DNA of 64,000 nt, from the NCBI GenBank assembly GCA_017450125.1, contig JAFSWZ010000039.1, forward strand, positions 1-64,000, read 5' to 3'. The translations under genes and the position numbers were made by a program. The notes under the pieces were generated by a model. That model was not told where the DNA came from. It was given only the letters and a program-made list of their open reading frames with translations, and did no database searches. This DNA comes from Synergistaceae bacterium (GTDB lineage: Bacteria; Synergistota; Synergistia; Synergistales; Aminobacteriaceae). The stretch's first letter is position 1. The number at the start of each line of letters is the position of its first letter. Below, piece by piece: positions 690 through 25,326 of this stretch.

Positions 690-1526
690 TTAATATTCTC
701 CGTTGAAGACCTCGACAGCAGGCCCCGTCATGAAGCACCTGTCCTCGTCGTCGACGCGAATCACCAAGTCCCCGCCCCTAAGGTGCACGGTTATTCCGCA
801 GTTCCTGTCCAGTCTTCCAGACACAACCCCAGCAAATGCACTCGCAGTAGAGCCCGTTCCGCAGGCCATCGTCTCGCCGCTTCCCCTCTCGTACACGCGC
901 ATGTTGATTTCACGCCTCGAGACTACCTCGATGAACTCGCTGTTGATTCTGTTCGGGAAATTCTCGTGCCGCTCGAAGTAGTCGCCTTCTGACGCAAACT
1001 TGCTGTCCGTCCAAGTGTGAATGTCGGCTATCGCAGGGTTCTCGTCGAGGAAGTAGACTGCGTGGTCGTTGCCGACGTTGATGCCGATGTACTTCAGCTT
1101 CACCCCGTGAACCGTGATGTCCTGCGGTATGCTGGTTGTTGCGCGGCCGATGCCCATGTCTACGGTTGCTGACGAGACCTTGCCGTCCTCAACGGTTATG
1201 TTTATCTCGTGCATTCCGACGGGAGTGTCGATGAGGAGGGTGCGCCTGTCCGGCGGGACGAGACCGTGATCGTAGACGTACTTGGCCACGCAGCGGATTC
1301 CGTTGCCGCACATTGTGTCAGAGCTCCCGTCGGAGTTGTAGAGCTGCATGAACGCGTCTGCTTTGTCCGTAGGGAGAATCAGGATGATGCCGTCCGCACC
1401 GATGCCCTTGTGTCGGTCGGAGACGATGGGCGAGAGCTTCTCGGGGTTGTCGACGGTCTCGAAGCCGGGAAAGCAGTTGACGTAGACGTAGTCATTTCCG
1501 CAGCCGTGCATCTTCGTGAATTTCAT
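690..1526 (-). CDS. dapF: Diaminopimelate epimerase
   Basis: Converts LL- to meso-diaminopimelate for lysine and for peptidoglycan cross-links. The 278-residue protein has the usual DapF length and the start KFTKMHGCGNDYV. Both catalytic cysteines are present in their motifs, MCGNGIRC in the first half and ACGTGSTA in the second. The frame stays open 48 bases further upstream, but the ATG at 1524-1526 is preferred because a GGAGGA ribosome-binding site lies 6 bases before it and the family begins there. The gene is alone, about 24 kb from the dapA-dapB-dapH operon it serves. It converges on the glutamate dehydrogenase gene. Confidence 0.96.
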   Translation of the reverse strand: MKFTKMHGCGNDYVYVNCFPGFETVDNPEKLSPIVSDRHKGIGADGIILILPTDKADAFMQLYNSDGSSDTMCGNGIRCVAKYVYDHGLVPPDRRTLLIDTPVGMHEINITVEDGKVSSATVDMGIGRATTSIPQDITVHGVKLKYIGINVGNDHAVYFLDENPAIADIHTWTDSKFASEGDYFERHENFPNRINSEFIEVVSRREINMRVYERGSGETMACGTGSTASAFAGVVSGRLDRNCGITVHLRGGDLVIRVDDEDRCFMTGPAVEVFNGEY

Positions 1527-1613: not shown

Positions 1614-2435
1614 TTACAGCTTTAGCTTGCGCCTGATCCTGTTCAGGAAGCTGAACGTCTTGGGGCTCAGCCTCTGCTTGACGCTGCCGTAGAGTGCTGA
1701 CTTCATGCTTTGCGGGTGCGTGAACAGATAGTGCTGGAACTCCAGAATCCTGCAGAAGAACTCGTACTGCTCTGCGGGATAGTGCCTCTCGATGACCTTC
1801 GAGATGTCCGCAAGATCTTTCTCCAGCAGCTGCATGTTCCACGGGATCACCAGAGCCTCAAACAGGTTGCCGGCAAACCTTCTCGTAAGCTCGGACACCC
1901 TGAACGCTCCGATGTTCGGCAGAATCTTGTCCTCCGCGTCGGGAGCAGGAACAACCTTATCTTCCGACACAACGCTCGAGAACAGGTAGCGGCAGGCCAA
2001 GTTGTAGCGGTAACGTTCTTGTGCAAACAGGGAAATATCGTGCAGGACAACCCACGAGTCATCCTTCATGAACGGCAGGACGCACAAGAAGTTCAGCGTC
2101 TCCCACGGGTGCGTGTGGACAGTGTCCAGCATGAACAGGTCAATGTCTCCGCCGATCTCCTCTATGAAGTGCGAGACATCACCTCCTCTGAAGACATGCC
2201 ACTTGTCCAGAAACTCAGGAAACTTCTCCTCCACGAGAAAACCTGAATGCTTCTCCGTGCTGGTGATAGATTCCTCGAGGTAATCGACGGAATACAGCTC
2301 TGCTCCGTCAATGTCGGAAATTGCGTTGAGGATTATTGCGCTCCCGCCTCCTGCTGCTATTCCGGCCTCCAAAAGTTTACGAGGCCTCAGAGCGCGTATT
2401 ATCCCGTTGAGGAAATAACGCTCCGTCTTCTTCAT
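1614..2435 (-). CDS. Class I SAM-dependent methyltransferase, 5' end disrupted by a repeat
   Basis: The protein has a class I methyltransferase core: LEAGIAAGGGSAI (SAM loop) near residue 22, an acidic VDYLE at the end of the next strand, then LDTVHTHPWET and VVLHDIS. Similar proteins, as I recall them, occur in surface-polysaccharide gene sets, so a sugar or lipid substrate outside the core metabolism is likely but unproven. The ATG at 2433-2435 is only the first in-frame start. Coherent coding sequence (DTDKLTPIYDIVAPHS) continues upstream of it in the same frame, back to a TAA just beyond a 13-bp tandem repeat, with no start codon on the way. A GTG at 2575-2577 with an AGAGG site reads into this frame only if one repeat unit is removed. 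The gene therefore looks phase-off or frameshifted, and the 273-residue product would be short at the amino end. Confidence 0.8.
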   Translation of the reverse strand: MKKTERYFLNGIIRALRPRKLLEAGIAAGGGSAIILNAISDIDGAELYSVDYLEESITSTEKHSGFLVEEKFPEFLDKWHVFRGGDVSHFIEEIGGDIDLFMLDTVHTHPWETLNFLCVLPFMKDDSWVVLHDISLFAQERYRYNLACRYLFSSVVSEDKVVPAPDAEDKILPNIGAFRVSELTRRFAGNLFEALVIPWNMQLLEKDLADISKVIERHYPAEQYEFFCRILEFQHYLFTHPQSMKSALYGSVKQRLSPKTFSFLNRIRRKLKL

Positions 2436-2519
2436 GATGGAATGAGGAGCTACTATGTCGTATATTGGTGTGAGTTTGTCTGTGTCGAAGTCTTCATATG
2501 GCCTTGCAGAATCGTGAAG

Positions 2520-2557
2520 GTTGCCTTGTCGTGTTGCCTTGTCGTGTTGCCTTGTCG
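2520..2557 (-). repeat. 13-bp tandem repeat, about 2.9 copies, at the 5' end of the methyltransferase gene
   Basis: On the plus strand GTTGCCTTGTCGT is repeated head to tail at 2520-2532 and 2533-2545, with a third copy matching 12 of 13 bases at 2546-2557. Thirteen is not a multiple of three, so each gain or loss shifts the frame. With the present number the frame opened by the GTG at 2575-2577 ends at a TGA in the early methyltransferase region. With one unit fewer, the GTG reads VLDAAIIDKATRQGNLHDSA and continues without a stop into the methyltransferase. Confidence 0.9.
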
Positions 2558-2624
2558 ATTATAGCGGCATCAAGCACGTTTGTCTACCTCTTTCTTCGTG
2601 ATTTTTGAAGATTATATCACATTG

Positions 2625-10952: not shown

Positions 10953-13900
10953 GTGAATATTACTGTGCGCATCATAGGCTCACTCATAAAGTATGTGATA
11001 TATCTCTGTATCGTGCTCATTGCTGTTACTGCCGCGCTCTTCTGGTTCGACACGGGCTCGTGGCTCGTCAAGCCTCTGGCTGAGAGGGCAGGCAGCTACT
11101 TCCTTGCTCCCATGACGCTGACTGTGGACAGCGTAAACGGTTCAGTACGCGAGGGCTTCACGCTGGAAGGCCTTGTGCTGTCGTCTGGGGACGAGGAGAT
11201 GTTCACGCTCGGCTACGCATCAGTGAGCCCGGACTGGGACATGGTTCTTGCAGGAGGAGACGGACTGCCCTACATCAAGAGCCTTAACGTCAGGGGTGTA
11301 AGTTCTGACCTCGACAAGGTGATGACAGTTGCGGGATTGTTCGAAAAAGATGAAGAGGACGAAGACGCAGAAGACGATGACGAGGAAGACGAAGAATCCT
11401 CCGCGTTTCACCTTAACCCTTTCAGCCTCTCGGTGAGCGACGTGAATTTCGGCACGCCGTACGCTGCATTGTCCCTCGACGCAATCACTCTCACGCCCGA
11501 AGGCATTTTCTCTTTCGCCGCAGACGTAACCTCGAACGACAACACATTACCCCTCAAAGCAGACGCACGGATAAACTTTGAGCCCCTCGAGGTAATCTCG
11601 TCGGATCTGTTCATTGGACGCAAGGGCACGGGGAAATTCGCTGGCTGTCTCGAACCGTTGAAGGCTTACCTGTCATTGACGGCGTTATCTCTTGATGAGT
11701 TCATGAGGTTCGCGCCGCCTCTGCCGGTTACTGCATCGGGAAGGCTTGACGGGAGATTCTCTGCAGTCAGCGAGGACGGAAGGCTGAAGGCAAACGGTGT
11801 CGTGTCGATGCCGCGCGCCGAAGTGATGGACGTTCCGCTGAATCTGCGAGTACCTTTCGCGTGGGATGGTGCAGGAGTCCTCACGCTGGACAATGCTGCA
11901 CTCAACACCAGAGCCGCAAGCGTGAAGCTGGACTCGGAGACGGACATCAACACTCTCAGGGTTAAGGCGAATGGAGAAGCGTTGAACATCTCGCTGAACG
12001 AGATAGGCCGTATCTTTGCGCCGGAAGCAGGCCTCGAGGGCGAGGGAGGAAGCGTGAAATTCGACGTTGACGCGGTGCTGTCGGGGGACATTCTCGGAAG
12101 AACGAGTGCGGACGTTAAGGCGGACATTCCGCAGATTACGGCGGCAGGAGTAAGGATTCTGCGGAGCTTGGCCGGACAGCTGACGCTCACTCCCGGAGGT
12201 TTTCCGCGCCTCAACGCCAATGGAGAAATTTTCGGCGGAAAGTTATTTGCCCGCGCAGAAGCACAGACAGCTTCTGATAGCAGCATCAAACCGAACGCAG
12301 TCCTCTCAATCGTGAATCTGGACATCCCGACGGCGGTAAGGACTTTTCCGGCTCTGGCCAAGAGCGTTAAACGTCCCGAAGGCAAAATCACCGCCCGAGC
12401 AGTTCTCACGGAATCACTCGACGTAACTGCGAAGCTGACTTCAGACCGTCTCGGTGCTGAGGGAGTAACGCTCACGAATCTTCTTGCGGAAGCGTTCTAC
12501 AGCAACAGCAGGGGCATCGCGGAGCTCGAAGGCTTGTCGATGAATCTCGGCAAAGGAAGGCTCACTGCTTCAGGGAGCGCGAACCTCAGCACTAACCGTT
12601 TCAGCTTCAGGACGGACGCACAGAACATAGAGCCGCGAGCCATTCCGATGCTGCGGGACGTTAAGGGCACGTACACTTTGACCGCGCAGGGTTCGGGGGA
12701 CTACACGGACATCAAGAGCATCAAGGCAGAAGCAGACCTCAAGGCACGGAACGTAGGCTACCAGACTTACAGCGTCGGGACGGTGAACATTCCTGTAGAT
12801 GTGTCGGACGGCAAGGTATCAATCAGCGACGCGGCAATCACCCTCCCGAAAGGCAGAATAACCCTTGACGGGACAGCTGACCTGCTCAGAAACACTTTCA
12901 GCCTCAATGCAGACGCACAGAACGTAGAACCCCGTTATTTCGTGAAGGATGTTGCGGGGACGTTCAACCTCACTGCGAACGCGTCAGGCAACTACACGAA
13001 GATACCCACAATCCGCGCGACCGCAGACCTCAAGGGGCGAAACTTGGGTTATCAGGGCAGAAGATTCGGTAACGTGGATGTCCCGTTCACGTTTGCTGAC
13101 AGCACAGCGAGAATCAACGGCGCAGTAATCAGTCTCCCGAAGGGCAGAGTTACGCTCGGAGGGACTGCAAACGTCAATTCAGGAGCATTCAGCTTTAACG
13201 CCAATGCCCAGAACGTAGAGCCGGGAGCTTTCGTGCCTGACTTGTCGGGGACGTTGAGCCTCACAGCCAGCGGGTCAGGCAACTACAACAACATCAACGG
13301 CATAAAGGCAACCGCAGACCTCAAAGCCCGCAATCTAGGCTATCAGGGCAGAAGATTCGGCAATGTGGACGTTCCGTTGTCCTTCGCGAACGGTACGCTG
13401 AACATTCCGTCGGCAAGGGCAGCACTTCCCGGCGGGACTGTCTCGCTCAAGGGCACTGCGAACGTCAAGAACACCGCCAACCCTGTGCTTAACTTGTCGG
13501 CCTCAACGCAGGGCATCGACCTGGCCGAGCTCATGACCCGCCTGAAGCTGCAGACAGCGGACATGCCGGTCTCCGGGAAAGTCTGGGGCAGCGTGAACGT
13601 CAAAGGACCTCTTGACCGTGCCTCAGTAAGTGCAGTCCTCAGAGCCGCGAACGTCAAAGCAGGTGAGCTGGCTGACGTTAAGGGTGGAGTTCTCGAGGTT
13701 CAGGGGGACACGAGGAAGGTTGTCGTGAAGAGGCTCGAAGCTGACATCAACGGCGCAAACATTATCGGCAACGGAGACCTGACCATCAACCAGCGGGACA
13801 TCATGAAGAGTGCGGTGAACGTTCAGGCCAAAGTCGGACGGCTTAACCTGAAGAAGATTCTGACCCAAGCAATGGGGAGCGCGCCGGTAACAGGAATGAT

Positions 13901-15197
13901 AAGGGGAGACGTGGCACTTCGCGGAACTCTGGGACAGCCTGCGCTTGACGTTCAGCTGAAGTCGCCGGTGATTTACGGGAGCACGGAGATTGACGACATA
14001 ACGGTAAGGCTGAGGTCTCCCGAAAACAATCACTTTGTTGTGAACGCCGGAGCAAGAGTCGGTGAGTTCCGTGCTGACGCAGAGACTGACCTTCGGAACA
14101 GCGGCGGAGTGTGGACGTATCAGGTTGGCACGAAGCCTCTGGACATCGACAAGGCGATACAGACGCAGATGCCTGACATGGCCGGAATCGCGAAGGGCAA
14201 ACTCACCGTCAACGTCAAGGGGAGCACGAAGCCGGGTGCGGACGTACGCGTAGACGCGCGGATCCCGAGACTTCAGCTCGTGGACAAGATAGACGTTACG
14301 GACATAACCCTTCCTGTAACTTACAGCCCCTCTACGAACAGAGTAGAACTCAGAAAGGCGGGTGCGAAGCTCAGCGACGGGACGATAGACACGGGCTTTG
14401 AGTACGACATCGCGAAATCTTCGTGGAAGGGCAGCGTGAAGGTCATGCACCTGGACTTCGGGAAGCTGGCGAATAAGTTTCTGCCTGAGGGAGAACTTGT
14501 AGGGAGCGTCGACGCACAGGTCAGCATGAAGGGACAGCAGGGCATGATGAACACGAGTTTTGCGAGCGGGAAATTTTCGACAACGCCGGGATATTTTCAC
14601 AAGATGGCATTTCTCGACAAAGTTACTCCGACGAAGCGCATAAGTTTCGAGAACATCAGCGGTTCATTCTTCTGGAACGGAACGGATGTCTTCCTGAATC
14701 CAGGCACACGCGCGCGCGCAGGCAATGATGAGCCGCTCTACAGGTATGTTGACCTCAACGGTTCGCTTGGAGTTCCGGGAAAGGGCTTGAACCTTGTTTG
14801 CGACGGAAGATTTGACCTTAAGATTCTCGACCAGTTCTTGGGCGCGATGAAGGGAGTGTTCCAGTACGTTACTGGCGGTGTTGCGCGCAACGTCCTCAAG
14901 GATGCGGCGGGGCGTGTTCTTGGCCTGAAGCGGAGGGACTTCCAGAATGTGTCATTCACGCTCGCTAACTCGTGGCAGAACCTGCGCCTGCTGAACCTGA
15001 AGATAACGAAGCCGATAGAGGACTTCCTGCCGATAGACATCCTCAACAGGGACGAAGAGAAGCAGAGGGACGACACACAGTTCAAGATGAGGCTTAGGAT
15101 TCCGACGGGCAAAGGTGATAAGAGCGTCGAGGAGGAGAGTACTACTGACCAGTTCAAGGAACAGCTTATCGACAACCTGTTCAACTTGGGACTGTAA
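10953..15197 (+). CDS. Giant AsmA/TamB-like outer-membrane biogenesis protein
   Basis: The 1414-residue product has one amino-terminal membrane segment (residues about 7-28) and then a very long periplasmic region of beta-rich repeats, the build of AsmA/TamB/YhdP proteins that bridge the inner and outer membranes and move lipids or assist outer-membrane assembly. Residues about 130-150 are almost only Asp and Glu (DNA 11340-11400). Residues about 549-845 hold three tandem copies of a roughly 97-residue unit with the recurring core ADLKARNLGYQ and AQNVEP. The carboxy-terminal part, with ISGSFFWNGTDV and LKILDQFLG, looks like an AsmA carboxy-terminal domain. A GTG start at 10953 is used; another GTG at 10965 is possible and better spaced from AGGA. 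A TATAAT box lies at 10927-10932. Exact orthology to TamB is not clear. Confidence 0.82.
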   Translation: MNITVRIIGSLIKYVIYLCIVLIAVTAALFWFDTGSWLVKPLAERAGSYFLAPMTLTVDSVNGSVREGFTLEGLVLSSGDEEMFTLGYASVSPDWDMVLAGGDGLPYIKSLNVRGVSSDLDKVMTVAGLFEKDEEDEDAEDDDEEDEESSAFHLNPFSLSVSDVNFGTPYAALSLDAITLTPEGIFSFAADVTSNDNTLPLKADARINFEPLEVISSDLFIGRKGTGKFAGCLEPLKAYLSLTALSLDEFMRFAPPLPVTASGRLDGRFSAVSEDGRLKANGVVSMPRAEVMDVPLNLRVPFAWDGAGVLTLDNAALNTRAASVKLDSETDINTLRVKANGEALNISLNEIGRIFAPEAGLEGEGGSVKFDVDAVLSGDILGRTSADVKADIPQITAAGVRILRSLAGQLTLTPGGFPRLNANGEIFGGKLFARAEAQTASDSSIKPNAVLSIVNLDIPTAVRTFPALAKSVKRPEGKITARAVLTESLDVTAKLTSDRLGAEGVTLTNLLAEAFYSNSRGIAELEGLSMNLGKGRLTASGSANLSTNRFSFRTDAQNIEPRAIPMLRDVKGTYTLTAQGSGDYTDIKSIKAEADLKARNVGYQTYSVGTVNIPVDVSDGKVSISDAAITLPKGRITLDGTADLLRNTFSLNADAQNVEPRYFVKDVAGTFNLTANASGNYTKIPTIRATADLKGRNLGYQGRRFGNVDVPFTFADSTARINGAVISLPKGRVTLGGTANVNSGAFSFNANAQNVEPGAFVPDLSGTLSLTASGSGNYNNINGIKATADLKARNLGYQGRRFGNVDVPLSFANGTLNIPSARAALPGGTVSLKGTANVKNTANPVLNLSASTQGIDLAELMTRLKLQTADMPVSGKVWGSVNVKGPLDRASVSAVLRAANVKAGELADVKGGVLEVQGDTRKVVVKRLEADINGANIIGNGDLTINQRDIMKSAVNVQAKVGRLNLKKILTQAMGSAPVTGMIRGDVALRGTLGQPALDVQLKSPVIYGSTEIDDITVRLRSPENNHFVVNAGARVGEFRADAETDLRNSGGVWTYQVGTKPLDIDKAIQTQMPDMAGIAKGKLTVNVKGSTKPGADVRVDARIPRLQLVDKIDVTDITLPVTYSPSTNRVELRKAGAKLSDGTIDTGFEYDIAKSSWKGSVKVMHLDFGKLANKFLPEGELVGSVDAQVSMKGQQGMMNTSFASGKFSTTPGYFHKMAFLDKVTPTKRISFENISGSFFWNGTDVFLNPGTRARAGNDEPLYRYVDLNGSLGVPGKGLNLVCDGRFDLKILDQFLGAMKGVFQYVTGGVARNVLKDAAGRVLGLKRRDFQNVSFTLANSWQNLRLLNLKITKPIEDFLPIDILNRDEEKQRDDTQFKMRLRIPTGKGDKSVEEESTTDQFKEQLIDNLFNLGL
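12601..13480 (+). repeat. Three in-frame repeats of about 295 bp within the AsmA-like gene
   Basis: Units start near 12601, 12898 and 13189 and each encodes about 97 residues beginning AQNxEP and containing ADLKARNxGYQ, then LPKGRxTLxGTA. Units two and three are nearly alike at DNA level around GGGCAGAAGATTCGG (near 13056 and 13347), so at least one duplication seems recent. Confidence 0.8.
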
Positions 15198-15263
15198 ATT
15201 TTCGTCAACGCACCGTAAAATAACTCATATAACCCTTGATTTTTTAGGAAGGAGCATATAATA

Positions 15264-16290
15264 ATGAGCAGAGAGCAGAGAGCAGAGAGCCTGCTATTTT
15301 GACTTTTTGCGGGTGCTGGCAGCTTTTGCAGTAATGTTGCTTCACGCCTCAAGCAGAAATTACACAAGCAGCGTATCGCAGGAAGTCTTCAGGTTTTACG
15401 GCAGTACAGTAAGGTGGGCAGTTCCTATGTTCCTGATGATAAGCGGTTCACTGTTCCTCAGCCGAGATATTCCAGTCAGGAAAATTTACGGCAAATACAT
15501 ACTGAGGATATTCACGGCGTATTTGTCGTGGTCAGCAGTATACGCGCTTGCAGTCTATAGGGAGACAGGAGCATCAGCCGAAATCATCCCCAACATAATG
15601 ACAGGGCATTATCATATGTGGTTTCTGCCGATGATAATGACAATGTACATGCTGGTTCCATTCTTGAAGAAAGTAGCAGACTCACAGTTCCTGACGAGAT
15701 ATTTTCTTGTGCTGAGCTTCATTGCAGTGTTCGTTGTGCCGCAAATCCTGCGCCTCGTGTCTCCGATTTCAGAGTATTATGATGAAGCCGCCAAAAAACT
15801 TGCTGATAATTTTCATCTGTCCATATTCTCCACACATGTCGGCTATTTCGTGTTCGGGTACGTCATGAGCAGAATCAAGCTGTCCCGTAACGCGGAGCGT
15901 ATGGTTTACGTTCTTGGTGTGCTGGGCTTCTTGGGGACATTCCTATACAGCAGATACTCTCTGCAGAATGACTCGCTGTACACCAAATACCCTATCGGCT
16001 CTGGGCTCAGCGTGTTATTCCAAGCGACGGCAATCTTTGTGCTTTTCAAGGAGCACTGCCCAGCTAATGAAAAGGTCAGGGATTTCTTCAGGATGCTGGC
16101 TAAATACAGTTTCGGTGCGTACCTTGCACATGAAGCTGTGATACATCTTCTAAGGAAGCTGGGGCTTAACCTTTTGTTGTTCGACACGAGAGTTTCAGTG
16201 CCTGTAATTGCTTCAGCAACGTTTGTGGTTGCGTTCGGAATATCTGCGGTCTTGAATCAAATCCCCGTACTGAGAAAGTATATCGTGTAG
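15264..16290 (+). CDS. Membrane acyltransferase (acyltransferase 3 family), out of frame at a 7-bp repeat
   Basis: A multi-pass membrane protein of the family that transfers acetyl or other acyl groups to surface sugars, with some ten hydrophobic segments. The family's amino end is recognisable: YFDFLRVLAAFAVMLLHAS, with the conserved histidine, then RWAVPMFLMISGSLF and HMWFLPMIMTMY. The ATG at 15264-15266, with a GGAAGGAG site 8 bases upstream, is the natural start, but three copies of AGAGAGC follow and the frame ends at a TGA at 15300-15302 after 12 codons. With two copies the same ATG reads MSREQRACYFDFLRVLAA and runs to the stop at 16290. As it stands, only an internal start such as the TTG at 15307 could give a product, without part of the first membrane segment. 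The sequence upstream ends the AsmA-like gene 66 bases away. Confidence 0.82.
15270..15290 (+). repeat. 7-bp tandem repeat, three full copies, directly after the acyltransferase ATG
   Basis: AGAGAGC occurs at 15270-15276, 15277-15283 and 15284-15290, preceded by a partial GAGC. Seven is one more than a multiple of three, so each copy gained or lost shifts the frame by one. Two (or five) copies would join the ATG at 15264 to the acyltransferase frame. Confidence 0.93.
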
Positions 16291-16332: not shown

Positions 16333-17430
16333 TTACACGTTGAAGCGGATCTCTATCATGTCGCCGTCCTTGACTATGTACTCTTTGCCCTCGAGCCTCA
16401 GAACTCCCTTGTCCCGGCACTGCGCAATTGATGCGTTGTTCGCGATAAAGTCCTCGTACGCCACAACCTGCGCCCTGATGAAGCCTCGCGCAAGGTCGCT
16501 GTGTATTGTTCCTGCGGCATCTACAGCACTGCTCCCCTCACGCAACGTCCATGCTCTGACCTCGTCGCTGCCTGACGTGAAGAACGAAATCAGCCCCAGC
16601 AGCTTGTACGCCTCGTGAATCAGCCTGTCCCTGCCCGGCTCTGTGATGGACAAGTCCTTCATGAACTCCGCGCGGTCTTCCGGGTCAAGTTGCTCAAGCT
16701 CCATCTCAGTAGCTCCGTAGACTTTTACCGACTTCAAGCCCTTAGCGGACATCTCCGCCTCAAGAGGGGCAAGCTCCGGGACATCCCCCGTCTGAGTGTC
16801 GTCGAGGTTCAGCACGACAAGTTCAGGCTTCAGCGTCAGGAACGCAAACCCTGAGAGTGCGCGCTTCTGCTCATCAGTGAGCTCGAACTCACGAAGAGGC
16901 TTCTCGTCCAGAAGGTGAGCCTCTAACTCCTTCAGAAGCTCGAGCTCCTGCGCCTCCTGAGGTGTCAGCTTCTTCTTGGCCTTCTTCTCGTCTAGACGTG
17001 CAAGCCTGTTGCTGATTACCCCTAAATCACGGTAAATTAACTCCGCTTCTACTATGTGCCAGTCCCGCAGAGGGTCAATGCTGTTCTCAGGGTGTGGCAC
17101 TGAAGCATTCTTGAAGACCCTCACGACGTGAAGCAGTGCCTCGCTCTCGGCAACGAACGACAGGAACGAGTTGCCCAGCCCCGCTCCCTTCCCTGCATCG
17201 CGCGACAATCCGGCCAAGTCCACGAACTCGACATCAGCGGGCTTCTCGCTTCTGGGCTTGAAGATCTCCACGAGGCGGTCAAAACGTGCATCAGGAACGT
17301 TCACGAGCGCACGGTTCGGCTCTGTCTTGCCGGATGCGTAAGGCTTAACCTCTGCTCCGGCTCTGGTGATTACGTTGAAGACAGTAGATTTTCCTGACAA
17401 CGGCAGTCCTACAATTCCGCATTTCAGCAT
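16333..17430 (-). CDS. YchF/Obg-related GTP-binding protein (DUF933 type)
   Basis: A 365-residue P-loop GTPase of the YchF group. It starts with CGIVGLPLSGKSTVFN (P-loop; most YchF proteins have NVGKS here), has DLAGLSRDAGKGAGLGN (switch II region), and in place of the usual NKxD motif shows VVLNLDD, a YchF trait linked to ATP preference. The carboxy end has the TGS-like block VRAWTLREGSSAVDAAGTIHSDLARGFIRA. YchF proteins bind ribosomes and act in stress responses. The frame is open further upstream, but the ATG at 17428-17430 is chosen because the family begins here. It lies two bases after the L,D-transpeptidase stop, so the two are probably one operon. Confidence 0.88.
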   Translation of the reverse strand: MLKCGIVGLPLSGKSTVFNVITRAGAEVKPYASGKTEPNRALVNVPDARFDRLVEIFKPRSEKPADVEFVDLAGLSRDAGKGAGLGNSFLSFVAESEALLHVVRVFKNASVPHPENSIDPLRDWHIVEAELIYRDLGVISNRLARLDEKKAKKKLTPQEAQELELLKELEAHLLDEKPLREFELTDEQKRALSGFAFLTLKPELVVLNLDDTQTGDVPELAPLEAEMSAKGLKSVKVYGATEMELEQLDPEDRAEFMKDLSITEPGRDRLIHEAYKLLGLISFFTSGSDEVRAWTLREGSSAVDAAGTIHSDLARGFIRAQVVAYEDFIANNASIAQCRDKGVLRLEGKEYIVKDGDMIEIRFNV

Positions 17431-17432
17431 GA

Positions 17433-18272
17433 TTAATTCTCCCTTATCGTTACCGGCATGTTGCGGTACGCGTACTGCTTCAGCTCCGCTATGTCCTCGT
17501 TGCTGAGGCGGATGCATCCTTCTGTGGCGTTCGTGCCCCTGCTGTCGGGGTCGTGCGTTCCGTGAATGCCTATGCCCTTCCAGCCCTTAGCGTCGAGCCT
17601 CAGAAACCACGGGCCGTAAGCTCCTGCGATCTTGCCTTTGCCGTCGCGGAAGTCGTGAGACCAGCCGGATGCGTTCTCGATCGACACTATCTTGAAGTCC
17701 CCGACGGGTGTCCTGTTGTCGCCCCTCTTCTGCTTGTCGCCCTTGTTTCTGCCGACGGCAACGCTGTACGTTTTCACGGGTTCATTGCCCCTGTAGAGCG
17801 TTAAGGTGTACTCTGACTTGTTGATGACAATGCTGTACCTGCCGTTGTTCGGCTGAAGAGACACAGAGACAGGAGCAGGCAGAGTTTCCACTATTATCCT
17901 GTCGGTGTGGGGATTAGATTCTGAGGGCAGAACTATCGTGTTCTTCGTCATCGCGAGCGGAATGATTATGTGCTGCTGTTCCTGCTGAACGGGAGGGGCA
18001 GGAGGTTCTTCCGGCGCAGGAAGAGGAAGGCTCTCGGGTTCAGGGAGCGAGGCGGTAACCATCACGGGCTGGGGCTCGGCTTCGACGGCATGAGGCATGT
18101 TCAGCCCGGCGTAAACAGTGGCACACAGCACAACTCCGGCAGTGCAGAACACTCCGCGAAGCAGAGGATGAAGCCGCTTCTTGACGGTCCACTTCCCTGC
18201 CCCTCTGTCAATCCACACTGTACGGAGCGTGAACAAGTCTTTGACAAATTCGCGCAGTCTGTCAGTATTCAT
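17433..18272 (-). CDS. L,D-transpeptidase (YkuD family)
   Basis: Forms 3-3 cross-links in peptidoglycan or attaches proteins to it. The 279-residue protein has a cytoplasmic amino end, one membrane segment (about residues 38-57), a proline-rich linker (about 70-105) and a carboxy-terminal YkuD domain (about 150-278). The active site is complete: GIHGTHDP with the histidine and TEGCIRL with the catalytic cysteine and the following arginine. YSIVINKSEYTLTLYRG at the domain start is also typical. A single-pass type II membrane topology puts the domain in the periplasm. The gene precedes the YchF-like gene by two bases. Confidence 0.92.
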   Translation of the reverse strand: MNTDRLREFVKDLFTLRTVWIDRGAGKWTVKKRLHPLLRGVFCTAGVVLCATVYAGLNMPHAVEAEPQPVMVTASLPEPESLPLPAPEEPPAPPVQQEQQHIIIPLAMTKNTIVLPSESNPHTDRIIVETLPAPVSVSLQPNNGRYSIVINKSEYTLTLYRGNEPVKTYSVAVGRNKGDKQKRGDNRTPVGDFKIVSIENASGWSHDFRDGKGKIAGAYGPWFLRLDAKGWKGIGIHGTHDPDSRGTNATEGCIRLSNEDIAELKQYAYRNMPVTIREN

Positions 18273-19926: not shown

Positions 19927-22900
19927 TTATCTCTTGCGCTTGATGAAGAACGCGAGGACTGCTGCTCCTGCGACGGAGAGTCCCGCATCACAGCCGCCGC
20001 CGGGGCTTCCGATGGATGAAGGCTCTGCTGTGCTCGTGGTAATGACGGGCGCGTAGGTCTTGTCCGGCTCCATGTACGCCGCCGCGTTGACCTTCTTGCT
20101 CTCGGGAACGGTCTTGACCTCGTTTCCGTCGTCGTCAACGAACGTGCCGGTCTCGTCGTCGCCGCTGTCGTCTGACGCGCTGACTTCCGCAGTGCCAGTG
20201 TCGCTCTCGGGGAACATGTGCAGTACGATAACTGCTCCCACGTCGAGGCTCGTGAGGTCAATTCCCCAGACGTAGACTGCAGGGGTCTCCACGCGCATTA
20301 CGGGGAGAACGAGTGCCGGTATCTCGCCTGCCGGGATGGCCGCAACTTCCTCACTGCTGAGGGAGGATCTGTCGCCGCCTGACGCACTTTCGGGAAGCGC
20401 AAGGACTTCCGTGTCGCCGGTGAGAACTCCCACAATGGCCTGAAGAAGGCTGATTATATTCCCGGTTACTGTTTCGCTCTCTAGGTTCGCTGTCGGACGG
20501 GAAGGCCTCACAGGCACAGCCTCAACAGTCGGCGCGGAGGTGTCGCGGCTGTCGACTTCGGGAACAGTAACATCTACGCTGTCGGTGTCGGGAACAGAGT
20601 TGTCTCCGCTGTCGGGCTTCACATCCGGTGATGATGACACACCCGAAACTGCAATGTACATCGCCAGCTTTATGTGCCCGTCCTTCACTCCGTCGGCTAT
20701 CAGCGTCTCGCCTTCAGGTGAAAGCATGTACTCGCCTTCCTCAACATCCCCCGAAGCCGCATCTGCCGCCATCACTCCGTAGAACAGCATGATGTCTTCT
20801 CCGTCAATCATCGCGCCTGCCCCCGTGAGAGCAGTTACATCGCGCGACACACCGTAAGCCTGTACCGCCACAACTTTTAGCCCTGTCTTGCTGCTCAGAT
20901 CCGAGAGGTTCGGCATCTCACGGTAGCCGCTCTCTCCGACAGGAAGTGCGTTTATCGCCGTGAAGACCCTGTTGTAATTCTCCGTCCCAAGCGTTGTACG
21001 CGTCATGGTGAACTGCTTTCCGAAGCCTACGATACCCTTATAGTCGGCTGATACCCCGTTAAGAACTATGTCGAACGAGAAGCCGGAGTCCTGAACGCCC
21101 GCATCGTATGCGTCCGCCCTGTTGATGTCCCTCGACGTGCAGTCCGTTGCGTTGATGAAGTTGTTCTTGTCGAGCTCGGCATCAACCGCGTCCATTGCCC
21201 CGCGAGGAGTAAGCAGGAAGTTCAAGGCGGCAGTGTTCTTGTCCGTCGAGACGATAAGGTCTGTTGCGTCCGTCGTGAAGACATCAACGAACGTGCTCAC
21301 ATCAATGTACGTCTCGTTCCCGAACACAGCTTTGTACCTTCCCGCTCCGACATACGGCGAGAACGTCAGAGTCTTGTCGCTGCTCGAGTAAGTGTAGAGG
21401 TCAGGGCTGAGTGCGTCCGCGTGCCTGATGTTCGGCGTTACTGACACTATATCGTACTCCGCTCCCGCAGGAACATCGAACGACATCGTTACTGCCTGCC
21501 CCGCACCTTGAAGGAGTGCGTGATAACCCTCAGGGTACACCGGCGAAACATCAACGCTTGCCTGTTTCTTCAGCAACACGCTGCTCTTGAGCACAACGTC
21601 AGGAAGATTCTTCACCATGTACTTGATCTCAGTGATGGTCTTGCCCTCAAGGTCTGCTGTGTAATCATAATCCCTCGAGATTCCGTGAGGCTCGATGAAC
21701 TCCTTGATTGTCAGTGCGACAGTTCCTGCGGTGAACCACAAGTTGCTGTTGTGCCTGAGGCCGTAAGTCTTTCCCTCCGAAGTCGTGATGAGTGCGCCCA
21801 GATAGTTCTCGCGCGCGGCTATTGTGTCAAGGCTGGCATGTGTGATGTTCAGCGTGTAGTTCCCCCACGTGCTGGCTGTTCCGCTCGAGAGGGTTATTGC
21901 AGCGTCGTCGAACTCCCTTTCTTCCGTGAACATCTTGCCGAACTTACCTGCTGAATCAGCGTCCTTGTACTCAGCGAAAACATCTACGCTCCACGTGTAT
22001 CGTTTGTCCGCGCTTAGTGCCTGATACACTGCCTCAGACATGCGAACCTGCACAGCTTTTACGCCCGTGATGTCCCTGCCGCCGATGTCGTTGCTCTCGC
22101 TCGCCAGCTGGGCGAAATTGTTTGCGATTCTGGCTGTCGGAGAACTCACTGCGTCAAGACCGTCCACCCAGAGGTCAGCTGAAGTCTTGCCGGTCTCTCC
22201 TGCGTAGAACTCCGCCCAAGTCATGTCGGTAGTCGCGTAGTGATTACCTTCCGCGTAGAAGTTCAGGGCTATATCGCTGTACCCCTCTATCTTGAAGATT
22301 GCCGTATAATTTCCACCGGCAAGATCCCCGCTGATCGTCAAGGCCTTCCCTGTGTACGTATAGCCTGCTATCGGTGTACGGTTGCGCCCGTTCACAAAAA
22401 CAAACGAAGCAAGATCATACGATACCCCTTCAGGAATACCCGTGAACGTCAGCGGGATTGTTACATCAGTTCCTGTGGTTACCTTGTCTCCAGAGACACC
22501 AACCGTCGCTTCTGAGAACAGAGGGACTTTCACACTGCACGTGATGTGCTTGTCCGGCGCGTCCTTGAGCAGGTAGGTTATGCCGGTGATGGTCTTTCCG
22601 GCCAAGTCGTTGGTGTGTGCATAAGCAGGATGGTTGCCGTGAGGCTCCGTGAAGTCCGTTACGCAGAATGCCATCTCGTCATTCTTGAAGAATAAGTTGT
22701 AGAGGTGCTGTAGGCCGTACTTCTTTCCGTCCGAAGTCTCGAGAACTGCGCCGAGATACTTCCCTGAAACGTCGATGCTGTCAACGCCCGAGAGCTTCAG
22801 CCAGTAGTTGCCCCACACTGTTGATGCTCCGCTGGAGAGCGCGACAGATGCACTCGCAACCTCCTCGAGCTCGGTAACCATTTTCCCGAACGTCCCGTCT

Positions 22901-25191
22901 GCGCTGACTTCCTTATACTCGCTGAAGGCCTCACTGCTGGCCTTGTAGCGCGAGTCCTTGCTCAGAAGCCCGTAAAGCTCCTCGTTCATCCTCACGTGAA
23001 CGTCAGCCAGACCGCCTATGCGCGTGATGCTCTTCCCGTCCTCCGATACAACGTCGAACGACAGCACGCCGAACCTTGCGGCCTTGCCCGTTGTCGCCGA
23101 ACTCACAGCGTCGAGGCTGATCGCTGAGGCTTCCCCTATCTCGCCGGTGAAGAACTCCGTGTAGGTCATGTTCGTCGTCGCGTAATGCCAGCCCGAAACG
23201 TACACCGCTGCAGTGATGTCCGTGTAGTTGCTGCTGGAGAACGTTATAACATAAGAATTGGCCGGGATGCCTGCCTTGAACGTCAATTTTCCGTCAGAGT
23301 AAGAATAGAGCTCAGAGCTGACTGCCGACGAACCTTTCGCTGAAGGCGTAACCGCTGAGACCGTGTAGCCCGCATCCGAAGGCACGTTCTGGAACGTGAA
23401 GCTGACTGTGTCTCCAGCTTCTGCCTCTGCCTTGTCGGGGGAAGCCACTGCTTTGCAGAAATACTTGACGAACACATCACAGCTTATCACCGCGTCAGGC
23501 TGGTTCTTGAGCATGTAGGTTATCTTCTTGATGGTTTTGCCCTGCATGTCCTCAGTGTGCTTGAACGACAGGTGAGTTCCGTTCTTTTCCTCGAAGTCAT
23601 CAATACTGAAGCCTATCTGCTCGGCCAAGTTGCCCCTTATCCACAGGTTATGCAGAGGCTTGAGGCCGTAGACTGCTCCGTCGCTGGTCTCGAGCGTCGC
23701 CCCCAAGAAGTTGTCGAGGCTTGCTCCGATGTCCAGATCAAGGCTCGCGTAGTTGAAGTTAGAGAGGTTCAGCCTGTAGTGGCCGTGTCCGTTGGAAGTC
23801 CCTCCGGCAAGAGCTACGTCAACGCTCAGCTTTGCGTTCACATCCAGAGACTGCGTAACCATCTTTCCGAACGTGCCGTCTGCATCAACGTCCTTGTACT
23901 CGGCGAAGGTATCTCCGCTGAACGTGTAGCGGCTGTCGTTCCTGAGAGTCTGATACACTGCGTCGGTCATTCGGACCTGCACTGCCTTCACGCCTTCGAA
24001 GACCGTGCCGTCTCCCGAAGTTCTGGCCGTAAAGCCCTGAAACCTGCTCACGAAACGCGTGGTAGCTGTGCTCACAGCATCATATTCCTCTGCCATGTCT
24101 GCCGCTTTCCCGCCGATTTCTCCCGCGTAGAACTCTGCCCACGTCATGTCAGTCGTTGCGTACCATGACGACACCTTGAACGTCGCCGCAACATCAGCGT
24201 ATTCTTCGCTCGTGAATGTCGCAGTGTAGCTCCCTTCTGCTGGGTTCGTGAGGGTCAGTACTCCGCCCTCGTAGGTGTAACCAGTTACGGCCTTGCTGTT
24301 CCTGCCGCTCCCGGTTGAGAGGCCCGAGAGCGTGTAGCCTTCCGCATCCTTCACGACGAACTTCACGGAGACCGTCGCATCTCTCTTGTAGTCCGACGAC
24401 TCTGCCTCGATGTCCGCGCTTCCCAGAGGCTTGACGTAAAGGTTCGTGTTGACCACAACGTCGGGCTTGTCCTTGAGGAGGTAGGTTATCTTGGTGATGG
24501 TCTCGCCCTCAAGGTCTGAGGTGTACTGCCAGCTCCTCTGGACTCCTGTCCCGTGAGGCTCGGTGTAGTTTGCGCTCACGCAGAAAGCTACGTCGGTGTT
24601 GCTCCAGATGTTGTTGTCATGACGCAGGCCGTAGACCTTTCCGCTCGCGGTCTCGAGCAGTGCTCCCATGTAGTTCGCGGCAACCTTGCTCGTGTCCGTT
24701 GTGCCGATGTCAATGTCAGCACTCTTCACGCTCAGGACGTAGTGCCCCCAGCGTGCGCTTGAGCCCGTCGCCATCGACACGACAGCTTCACCCGCCGTAA
24801 CCTTCTCGCCGACCATTGCGCCGAACGAGCCGTCAGCGTTCACGGGCTTGTACTCTCTGAATGACGATGTGCTGAGCGTGAAACGTGTTTTGTCGGTCAA
24901 AGCATTGTACACATCTTCACTCATTCTCACCTGCACAGCCTTCATGCCGCTGAGGGTCGTTCCGTTGTCGCCGGAAACTCCGAGCACCAAAGGAAATCTT
25001 CCCAGCCCGTGAGTTGTCGGGGTGCTGAACGCGTCGAGGCCTTCTGCTTTGAGGTCAGAAGATGTTTCGCCGGTCTCACCCGCATAGTACTCTGACCAGG
25101 TCATGTCTGTTGTTGCCCAGATGTCCGCGCCGAACGCACAGCTTGCCGCAAACACACTGCACAGCACCAGAAGAACACATAACTTCTTCAC
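19927..25191 (-). CDS. Giant repeat surface protein with Synergist-CTERM-type tail
   Basis: A 1754-residue exported protein of unknown function. The GTG at 25189-25191 is the best start: GGAG lies 10 bases before it and a clear signal peptide follows (KKLCVLLVLCSVFAASCAFG, cut near AFG-A). Four units of about 315 residues start at DNA 25118, 24159, 23194 and 22244; each opens with an ATTDMTWAEFY-like motif, then DAVSSATT-like and VRMSEAVYQAL-like stretches, and ends in a beta-rich, Ig-like part. From about 21290 a different region follows, then a Ser/Asp/Pro-rich linker. The tail SIGSPGGGCDAGLSVAG, a hydrophobic run and KRKR is a sorting signal of the Synergist-CTERM type, implying processing and anchoring at the cell surface. 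Adhesion is a guess only. It is divergent from the dapA operon. Confidence 0.85.
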   Translation of the reverse strand: MKKLCVLLVLCSVFAASCAFGADIWATTDMTWSEYYAGETGETSSDLKAEGLDAFSTPTTHGLGRFPLVLGVSGDNGTTLSGMKAVQVRMSEDVYNALTDKTRFTLSTSSFREYKPVNADGSFGAMVGEKVTAGEAVVSMATGSSARWGHYVLSVKSADIDIGTTDTSKVAANYMGALLETASGKVYGLRHDNNIWSNTDVAFCVSANYTEPHGTGVQRSWQYTSDLEGETITKITYLLKDKPDVVVNTNLYVKPLGSADIEAESSDYKRDATVSVKFVVKDAEGYTLSGLSTGSGRNSKAVTGYTYEGGVLTLTNPAEGSYTATFTSEEYADVAATFKVSSWYATTDMTWAEFYAGEIGGKAADMAEEYDAVSTATTRFVSRFQGFTARTSGDGTVFEGVKAVQVRMTDAVYQTLRNDSRYTFSGDTFAEYKDVDADGTFGKMVTQSLDVNAKLSVDVALAGGTSNGHGHYRLNLSNFNYASLDLDIGASLDNFLGATLETSDGAVYGLKPLHNLWIRGNLAEQIGFSIDDFEEKNGTHLSFKHTEDMQGKTIKKITYMLKNQPDAVISCDVFVKYFCKAVASPDKAEAEAGDTVSFTFQNVPSDAGYTVSAVTPSAKGSSAVSSELYSYSDGKLTFKAGIPANSYVITFSSSNYTDITAAVYVSGWHYATTNMTYTEFFTGEIGEASAISLDAVSSATTGKAARFGVLSFDVVSEDGKSITRIGGLADVHVRMNEELYGLLSKDSRYKASSEAFSEYKEVSADGTFGKMVTELEEVASASVALSSGASTVWGNYWLKLSGVDSIDVSGKYLGAVLETSDGKKYGLQHLYNLFFKNDEMAFCVTDFTEPHGNHPAYAHTNDLAGKTITGITYLLKDAPDKHITCSVKVPLFSEATVGVSGDKVTTGTDVTIPLTFTGIPEGVSYDLASFVFVNGRNRTPIAGYTYTGKALTISGDLAGGNYTAIFKIEGYSDIALNFYAEGNHYATTDMTWAEFYAGETGKTSADLWVDGLDAVSSPTARIANNFAQLASESNDIGGRDITGVKAVQVRMSEAVYQALSADKRYTWSVDVFAEYKDADSAGKFGKMFTEEREFDDAAITLSSGTASTWGNYTLNITHASLDTIAARENYLGALITTSEGKTYGLRHNSNLWFTAGTVALTIKEFIEPHGISRDYDYTADLEGKTITEIKYMVKNLPDVVLKSSVLLKKQASVDVSPVYPEGYHALLQGAGQAVTMSFDVPAGAEYDIVSVTPNIRHADALSPDLYTYSSSDKTLTFSPYVGAGRYKAVFGNETYIDVSTFVDVFTTDATDLIVSTDKNTAALNFLLTPRGAMDAVDAELDKNNFINATDCTSRDINRADAYDAGVQDSGFSFDIVLNGVSADYKGIVGFGKQFTMTRTTLGTENYNRVFTAINALPVGESGYREMPNLSDLSSKTGLKVVAVQAYGVSRDVTALTGAGAMIDGEDIMLFYGVMAADAASGDVEEGEYMLSPEGETLIADGVKDGHIKLAMYIAVSGVSSSPDVKPDSGDNSVPDTDSVDVTVPEVDSRDTSAPTVEAVPVRPSRPTANLESETVTGNIISLLQAIVGVLTGDTEVLALPESASGGDRSSLSSEEVAAIPAGEIPALVLPVMRVETPAVYVWGIDLTSLDVGAVIVLHMFPESDTGTAEVSASDDSGDDETGTFVDDDGNEVKTVPESKKVNAAAYMEPDKTYAPVITTSTAEPSSIGSPGGGCDAGLSVAGAAVLAFFIKRKR
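21290..25118 (-). repeat. Four diverged protein-coding repeats of about 315 codons in the surface protein
   Basis: Unit starts are marked by TTDMTWSEYYAGE, TTDMTWAEFYAGE, TTNMTYTEFFTGE and TTDMTWAEFYAGE near 25118, 24159, 23194 and 22244. The units differ throughout, so they are old duplications. Confidence 0.8.
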
Positions 25192-25234
25192 TGCTAATTC
25201 ATCTCCTAAAAGTTTTGTACTGGAAACAGTCGCA

Positions 25235-25264
25235 ATTATATCACGCGGGGATTTGACAAGATAA
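25235..25264 (-). promoter_or_regulatory. Probable promoter of the surface-protein gene
   Basis: On the minus strand a perfect TATAAT (25235-25240) lies 44 bases before the GTG start, with TTATCT as a possible -35 at 18 bp. It overlaps the dapA promoter on the other strand, so the two may compete. Confidence 0.5.
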
Positions 25265-25281
25265 ATTTTCGCGTCTATCAT
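25253..25281 (+). promoter_or_regulatory. Promoter of the dapA operon
   Basis: TTGACA (25253-25258), a 17-base spacer, then TATCAT (25276-25281). This is the strongest sigma-70-type promoter seen in the window. Transcription would begin near 25289, leaving a leader of about 210 bases before dapA. Confidence 0.75.
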
Positions 25282-25326
25282 TTCACGCATTCACACTAAA
25301 TTTTTGCGGAGGAGGATGAAGAGTTG

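Follow-up and report, generated by a model that had tools for sequence, protein, structure and literature searches.

The acyltransferase-3 (AT3) gene located between a tamB-like gene and ychF in the window, the 64,000-nucleotide stretch of Synergistaceae DNA analysed here, is very probably a simple-sequence-repeat contingency locus that is switched by slippage. Its assembled copy is OFF, its product is likely to acylate a surface glycan, and it would be one of a few dozen such loci. The repeat lies in the 5' coding region and its period is not divisible by three (7 here; 4, 5, 7 and 13 elsewhere), and the copy number decides in silico whether a full-length or a truncated product is made.

The AT3 locus and its reading frames

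The AT3 locus consists of the following parts.

10953..15197, + strand: tamB-like gene, 1414 aa, upstream neighbour of the AT3 gene (ORF; tblastn in relatives)
15246..15254, + strand: Shine-Dalgarno sequence AGGAAGGAG (read from the sequence)
15264..15266, + strand: start codon ATG (same Shine-Dalgarno/ATG place in frame in the array-free AT3 genes of G010 and G030)
15266..15290, + strand: tandem array, unit AGAGAGC (GAGCAGA) x3.57, putative phase switch (repeat scan, shuffles)
15292..16290, + strand: AT3 frame after the array, with R-X10-H in the first helix (PF01757, 8.3e-34; alignment)
15300..15302, + strand: TGA closing the out-of-frame product after 12 codons, OFF (frame reading)
16333..17517, - strand: ychF, downstream neighbour of the AT3 gene (NCBIfam TIGR00092)

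The initial annotation had placed an ATG at 15264 downstream of a Shine-Dalgarno sequence, three copies of AGAGAGC at 15270-15290 and a TGA at 15300-15302 after 12 codons, and all of them are read in the sequence as described. Three is the count in one register; the full perfect period-7 tract is 25 bp long and corresponds to 3.57 copies. It is the sole period-7 array with more than three copies in a repeat scan of the 64-kb window. Arrays with a period of 5-9 and a length of at least 25 bp are not detected in 30 dinucleotide shuffles of the window, and those of at least 18 bp appear at 0.03 per shuffle. When the AT3 product is read in silico with one to nine copies of the unit, proteins of 339, 346 and 353 aa are obtained at 2, 5 and 8 copies, and only products of 12-32 aa are obtained at 1, 3, 4, 6, 7 and 9 copies. 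This frame arithmetic agrees with the earlier proposal that two or five copies are ON and three or four are OFF, and the assembled allele with three copies is OFF.

The frame that runs to 16290, previously proposed to encode an acyltransferase-3 protein, matches PF01757 with 117.5 bits (8.3e-34; cut-off 31) if it is extended by the five residues preceding TTG 15307, and with 112.5 bits (2.8e-32) when it is taken from this TTG. It is intact over 332 codons and has the conserved residues of the family in the alignment. The R/K-X10-H motif in the first transmembrane helix, which is a mark of AT3 enzymes (PMC9558356), is present in the window protein as R7 and H18 of the alignment. A search of solved structures gives no homologue at E <= 1, and the sole match in one scan of genome contigs is a distant Lachnospira homologue. 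The window protein is located on a long branch of the tree (1.3 changes per column), which could reflect relaxed constraint.

The same locus is found in other species. By tblastn, a tamB gene with 52-74% identity adjoins an AT3 gene in G004, G010, G016, G026, G028, G030 and G065, and ychF adjoins it in G010, G030 and G065. After the ATG, the window and G004 have the unit AGAGAGC, G026 has AAGGCAG and G016 has AGGAGTC, whereas ACAGCAG is found in G028, G065 and the second AT3 copy of G010. One AT3 clade (support 100/99) contains three units, AGAGAGC, ACAGCAG and the 5-nt ACCAG. These units differ at an orthologous locus and all of them shift the frame, indicating that the unit has changed while the frame-shifting property has been kept. 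The change may have occurred through recombinational gene replacement or through replacement of the repeat alone. A single unit can also differ in copy number between orthologues of different species, as TCAGGAC is repeated 4.0 times in G023 and 7.4 times in G035. At the place downstream of tamB, G010 and G030 also have array-free AT3 genes, whose frame opens straight from the ATG that follows the Shine-Dalgarno sequence (MTDESRYYYFDFLRV, MTTETRCHYFDFLRV). The array has thus been either gained by, or lost from, an ordinary AT3 gene. The frame arithmetic, the orthologous arrays of other units and the array-free in-frame orthologues thus support the earlier reading of this gene as a phase-variable acyltransferase.

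A second locus of the window has a similar arrangement.

1614..2519, - strand: methyltransferase frame PF13578 after the array (Pfam, homologues)
2520..2557, - strand: array of the 13-nt unit CGACAAGGCAACA x2.9 at the 5' end of the methyltransferase frame (repeat scan, comparison)
2558..2610, - strand: leader with SD-like AAAGAGG and TAGACA-N17-TATAAT, followed by the array (read and compared)

Like 7, 13 is 1 mod 3. The frame that starts at the GTG of the leader closes after 27 codons, and the locus is therefore OFF; an extended -10 sequence, TGTGATATAAT, is located further upstream. The conserved region of the methyltransferase starts upstream of the first ATG of the frame. The same contig carries, at a distance of 87 kb, a paralogue with 68% identity and the array ACAAGCC x4.3, and homologues in other species have GAGCAAC, GACTCAG, ACACAGC, an array with a 14-nt period, or no array and an in-frame ATG. 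The methyltransferase locus is an independent repetition of the AT3 pattern.

Leader sequences and alternative readings

A putative promoter-like pair, P2, precedes the start codon of the AT3 gene.

15236..15241, + strand: TTGATT, -35-like hexamer of P2, 15-bp spacer (similar TTGAAA/TTGACA...TATAAT in orthologous leaders)
15257..15262, + strand: TATAAT, -10-like hexamer of P2, just before the ATG (statistics of related leaders)

The usual order in related leaders is an A-rich Shine-Dalgarno sequence, TTGACA, 15-18 nt, TATAAT or CATAAT, and the array; TAGACA replaces TTGACA in part of the methyltransferase group. Statistics were obtained for 57 leaders that were not selected for the hexamer pair. 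TATAAT with one mismatch at most is found 15-18 nt after TTGAC in 41 of them, as compared with 3.7 in shuffles (maximum 10), and in 36 the -10-like hexamer is separated from the array by 0-1 nt. The TTGAC-TATAAT pair is not found at any of 314 ordinary long ORF starts sampled. The hexamers enclose an ATG in 46 of the 57 leaders (22.9 by chance), and a start codon is open into the array in nearly every leader. An extended -10 sequence (TGnTAnnnT) is present in 28 leaders (5.5 by chance), mostly 31-46 nt before TTGAC, and is plausibly a real promoter. We know of no TTGACA-TATAAT leader at Haemophilus contingency loci.

The spacing of the pair, its contact with the arrays and its absence from ordinary starts favour the possibility that the arrays act mainly on transcription, with TTGACA-TATAAT being a working promoter whose output or start site is tuned by array length. 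The probability of this possibility is small, because the start codon, being enclosed by the hexamers, would be missing from transcripts of the pair, because no period found at gene starts is divisible by three and the units are stop-free, which points to control of the reading frame, and because an extended -10 sequence occurs further upstream in about half of the leaders. TTGACA-TATAAT was dropped as the main promoter on account of the start codon inside the pair and the extended -10 sequence upstream of it. A doubtful but conceivable alternative role is that of a dedicated slippage module, in which TTGACA-N16-18-TATAAT, built across the start codon, would place the region melted by RNA polymerase at initiation on the array, so that the array would become hypermutable or its length would be linked to transcription; this module, with its units often replaced, would have been set before dozens of unrelated surface genes throughout the genus. 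That the pair exposes the array to slippage is speculation.

The initial annotation had itself named TTG 15307 as an alternative start. If this codon were the true start, the gene would always be on and the repeat would be irrelevant. The frame is open from 15307 to 16290 and its product matches PF01757. However, the residues encoded between the array and this codon, YFDF, lie within the conserved first helix, with R-X10-H next, and in the alignment of 21 homologues Y2 is at least 90% conserved and D4 is invariant, both of them preceding the TTG codon (L6). The codon is replaced by CTG or TTA in some relatives, and no Shine-Dalgarno sequence precedes it. In glycosyltransferase genes that share this leader, none of the usual start codons follows the array, and the array-free genes at the AT3 locus begin at the upstream ATG. 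Because the residues before TTG are conserved and the array-free orthologues are in frame at the Shine-Dalgarno/ATG place, the upstream ATG is concluded to be the start, and initiation at TTG 15307 is very unlikely. The short tract, the OFF state of the assembly and the long branch would also be expected if the gene had decayed and were permanently OFF, the repeat being a chance or fossil tract. This is improbable, because the frame of 332 codons is intact and has the conserved residues of the family, and arrays of different units have been kept at the same place across species. An artefact of assembly or sequencing might be suspected, because the genome is a draft of 43 contigs and several arrays of relatives are located at contig ends, but an array of 25 bp is well within a read and dozens of independent assemblies show arrays at the same genes, so that such an origin is extremely improbable.

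Predicted switching and comparison with known systems

As a contingency locus, the AT3 gene would be switched as follows. Translation would begin at ATG 15264 and pass through the heptanucleotide array. Slipped-strand mispairing at replication would add or remove copies, reversibly, and each change by one copy would shift the reading frame, because 7 is 1 mod 3. With 3k+2 copies the ATG would be joined to the AT3 frame (ON), and with other counts translation would stop within approximately 30 codons (OFF). When ON, the membrane enzyme would most likely modify a surface glycan with an acyl (O-acetyl) group, and the population would therefore be a mixture of modified and unmodified cells. The mutation rate may be low, because the tract is short (3.57 copies).

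NeuO, the polysialic acid O-acetyltransferase of the E. coli K1 prophage CUS-3, has an AAGACTC array two nucleotides after its start codon; it is ON at multiples of three, and its heptads raise the activity (PMC3046976). It resembles the window AT3 gene in having a heptanucleotide array in the 5' coding region, in that the frame is set by the copy number, and in being a surface-glycan O-acetyltransferase, which is the predicted role of the AT3 protein. Its heptads, RLKTQDS, also resemble the LRTQDSG heptads of GGACTCA arrays in this genus. NeuO is, however, a left-handed beta-helix enzyme, unlike AT3; the window protein matches PF01757 only and lacks hexapeptide repeats. In addition, NeuO is a single prophage gene with one unit, whereas many chromosomal genes and dozens of units are involved here. 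Haemophilus influenzae oafA and the tetranucleotide loci are likewise phase-variable AT3 or glycosyltransferase genes with frame-shifting repeats, several per genome, but their units are mostly 4 nt long and of few types, and the GCAA tract of oafA is located in the middle of the gene (PMC2651432, PMC9558356). Salmonella oafB encodes a phase-variable AT3 O-acetyltransferase that acts on O-antigen, but it is switched epigenetically (phase variation signature upstream) without repeat slippage (PMC9558356). The TAACTGA repeats of Beggiatoaceae and cyanobacteria are also abundant heptamer arrays near translation starts, but they have one fixed unit, are mostly intergenic upstream of start codons, and have been proposed to be translational regulators (PMC4679880). 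NeuO and the Haemophilus repeat loci are the closest known systems, NeuO being the nearest in logic.

The genus probably belongs to Synergistota, as judged from the weak Synergist_CTERM match of a neighbouring protein, and it may conceivably live in the gut. Nothing relevant on phase variation in Synergistetes/Synergistota was found in the literature searched (open-licence papers). Most knowledge of phase variation by repeats comes from a small number of pathogens (Haemophilus, Neisseria, Campylobacter and E. coli K1). The loci studied here form a genus-wide set of surface genes that are likely to be switched ON and OFF, and no earlier description of such a set was found in this bacterial group. 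Two features go beyond the textbook case. One is that orthologous loci retain the switch but differ in their unit, so that unit turnover can be studied directly. The other is that a promoter-like pair abuts the arrays at a fixed spacing, which provides a testable idea of how arrays stay mutable. In metagenomic assemblies, the annotation would show many of these genes as truncated or lacking the N-terminus.

Repertoire of arrays in the genus

Loci were collected by pattern searches in 43 genomes of the same genus and by homology searches. The pattern-search loci are biased to CAG-containing units, a bias that does not affect the homology-found and unit-agnostic sets, and the number of loci was not taken from raw pattern counts, because a single array yields many overlapping matches. 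The fetched loci contain 55 cases of a leader, an array and a gene, with periods of 4, 5 and 7 and 25 units. Frame-shifting arrays (5, 7 and 13 nt) begin AT3, glycosyltransferase, methyltransferase and sugar transferase genes in many species of the genus. All 25 units, including all 18 heptamers, lack a stop codon in every frame; because an array of a random heptamer is stop-free with a probability of approximately 0.7 by simple arithmetic, 18 of 18 is a notable result. The Pfam families of 52 downstream proteins are enriched in surface-structure genes: 17 are AT3, 6 GT2 and 5 methyltransferase, and GT4, GT61, Bac_transf, WbsX and Stealth are found among the others. A phasevarion, in which a DNA methyltransferase is phase-variable, was considered and rejected, as DNA methyltransferases are absent among the downstream families listed and the two array-bearing genes of the window belong to PF01757 and PF13578. 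With automatically assigned starts, 11 of the 55 cases are ON, 36 are OFF and 8 are unassigned, the ON fraction being somewhat under one third, a point against the contingency reading.

The genome of the window was sampled over 475 kb (400 kb of stretches, the window and one fetched region) and scanned regardless of unit. Ten arrays are detected; most of those with periods of 5 or 7 follow the leader at a gene start, and the single 9-nt array sits inside an ORF. From six arrays in 400 kb, a rough figure of 30 arrays per genome is obtained. A GT2 gene (C29:61343), a methyltransferase gene (C13) and a gene for an unknown membrane protein (C33) are ON, and the AT3 gene, a second GT2 gene (C29:63628), a GT61 gene (C10) and others are OFF. 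On contigs C14 and C25 of the same genome, CAGTTCG arrays with the same leader (L185 2680-2860 and L186 2640-2815, minus strand) code for a short upstream ORF, and the stop codon of this ORF and the beginning of a radical-SAM gene overlap (TGGTAA/ATGG and TTGA). Switching at these sites may work by translational coupling; alternatively, the short ORF could be a product in its own right.

In L046 (G005:C18), neighbouring GT4-like paralogues on the reverse strand (219-312 and 1498-1525), 80.6% identical in DNA over 535 bp, have CGCAGAA x13.4 and AGCCAGA x4.0 at the same place, which is a change of unit within one genome. Between the tandem AT3 genes of the tamB-ychF locus in G010, contigs break inside what is apparently a single array (L194 8935-9006, end of C15; L023 1-55, start of C7), and arrays are also located exactly at contig ends in L002, L043, L044, L045, L052, L054, L096 and L142. 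G007, G014 and G063 (L077, L083) have many dispersed mixed heptads, GAGTTAG, GAGTGAG and GAGGCAG, adjoining gene starts; these heptads include stop codons and seem to represent another class of repeat rather than clean arrays.

The CAG-heptad pattern is common in the genus and patchy in the rest of the order (G133, G112, G088, G139, G141, G074, G091 and G111), and in several of these patchy genomes the arrays that were read are not fused to a long frame. In another genus of the order, CAACATT x7.7 is followed by the adjacent related unit CAACAGG x19.6 (L200 1449-1634), and in another family the 5' end of an AT3 gene carries an array of the tetranucleotide ACAG (L027 of G056, 1445-1462, reverse strand). 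Finally, the minus strand of the window at 19927-25290 encodes a large surface protein (1787 aa) that contains repeated modules and has, at its C-terminus, a Synergist-CTERM-like sorting signal, the match of which to Synergist_CTERM is weak (18.2 bits; cut-off 22.5).
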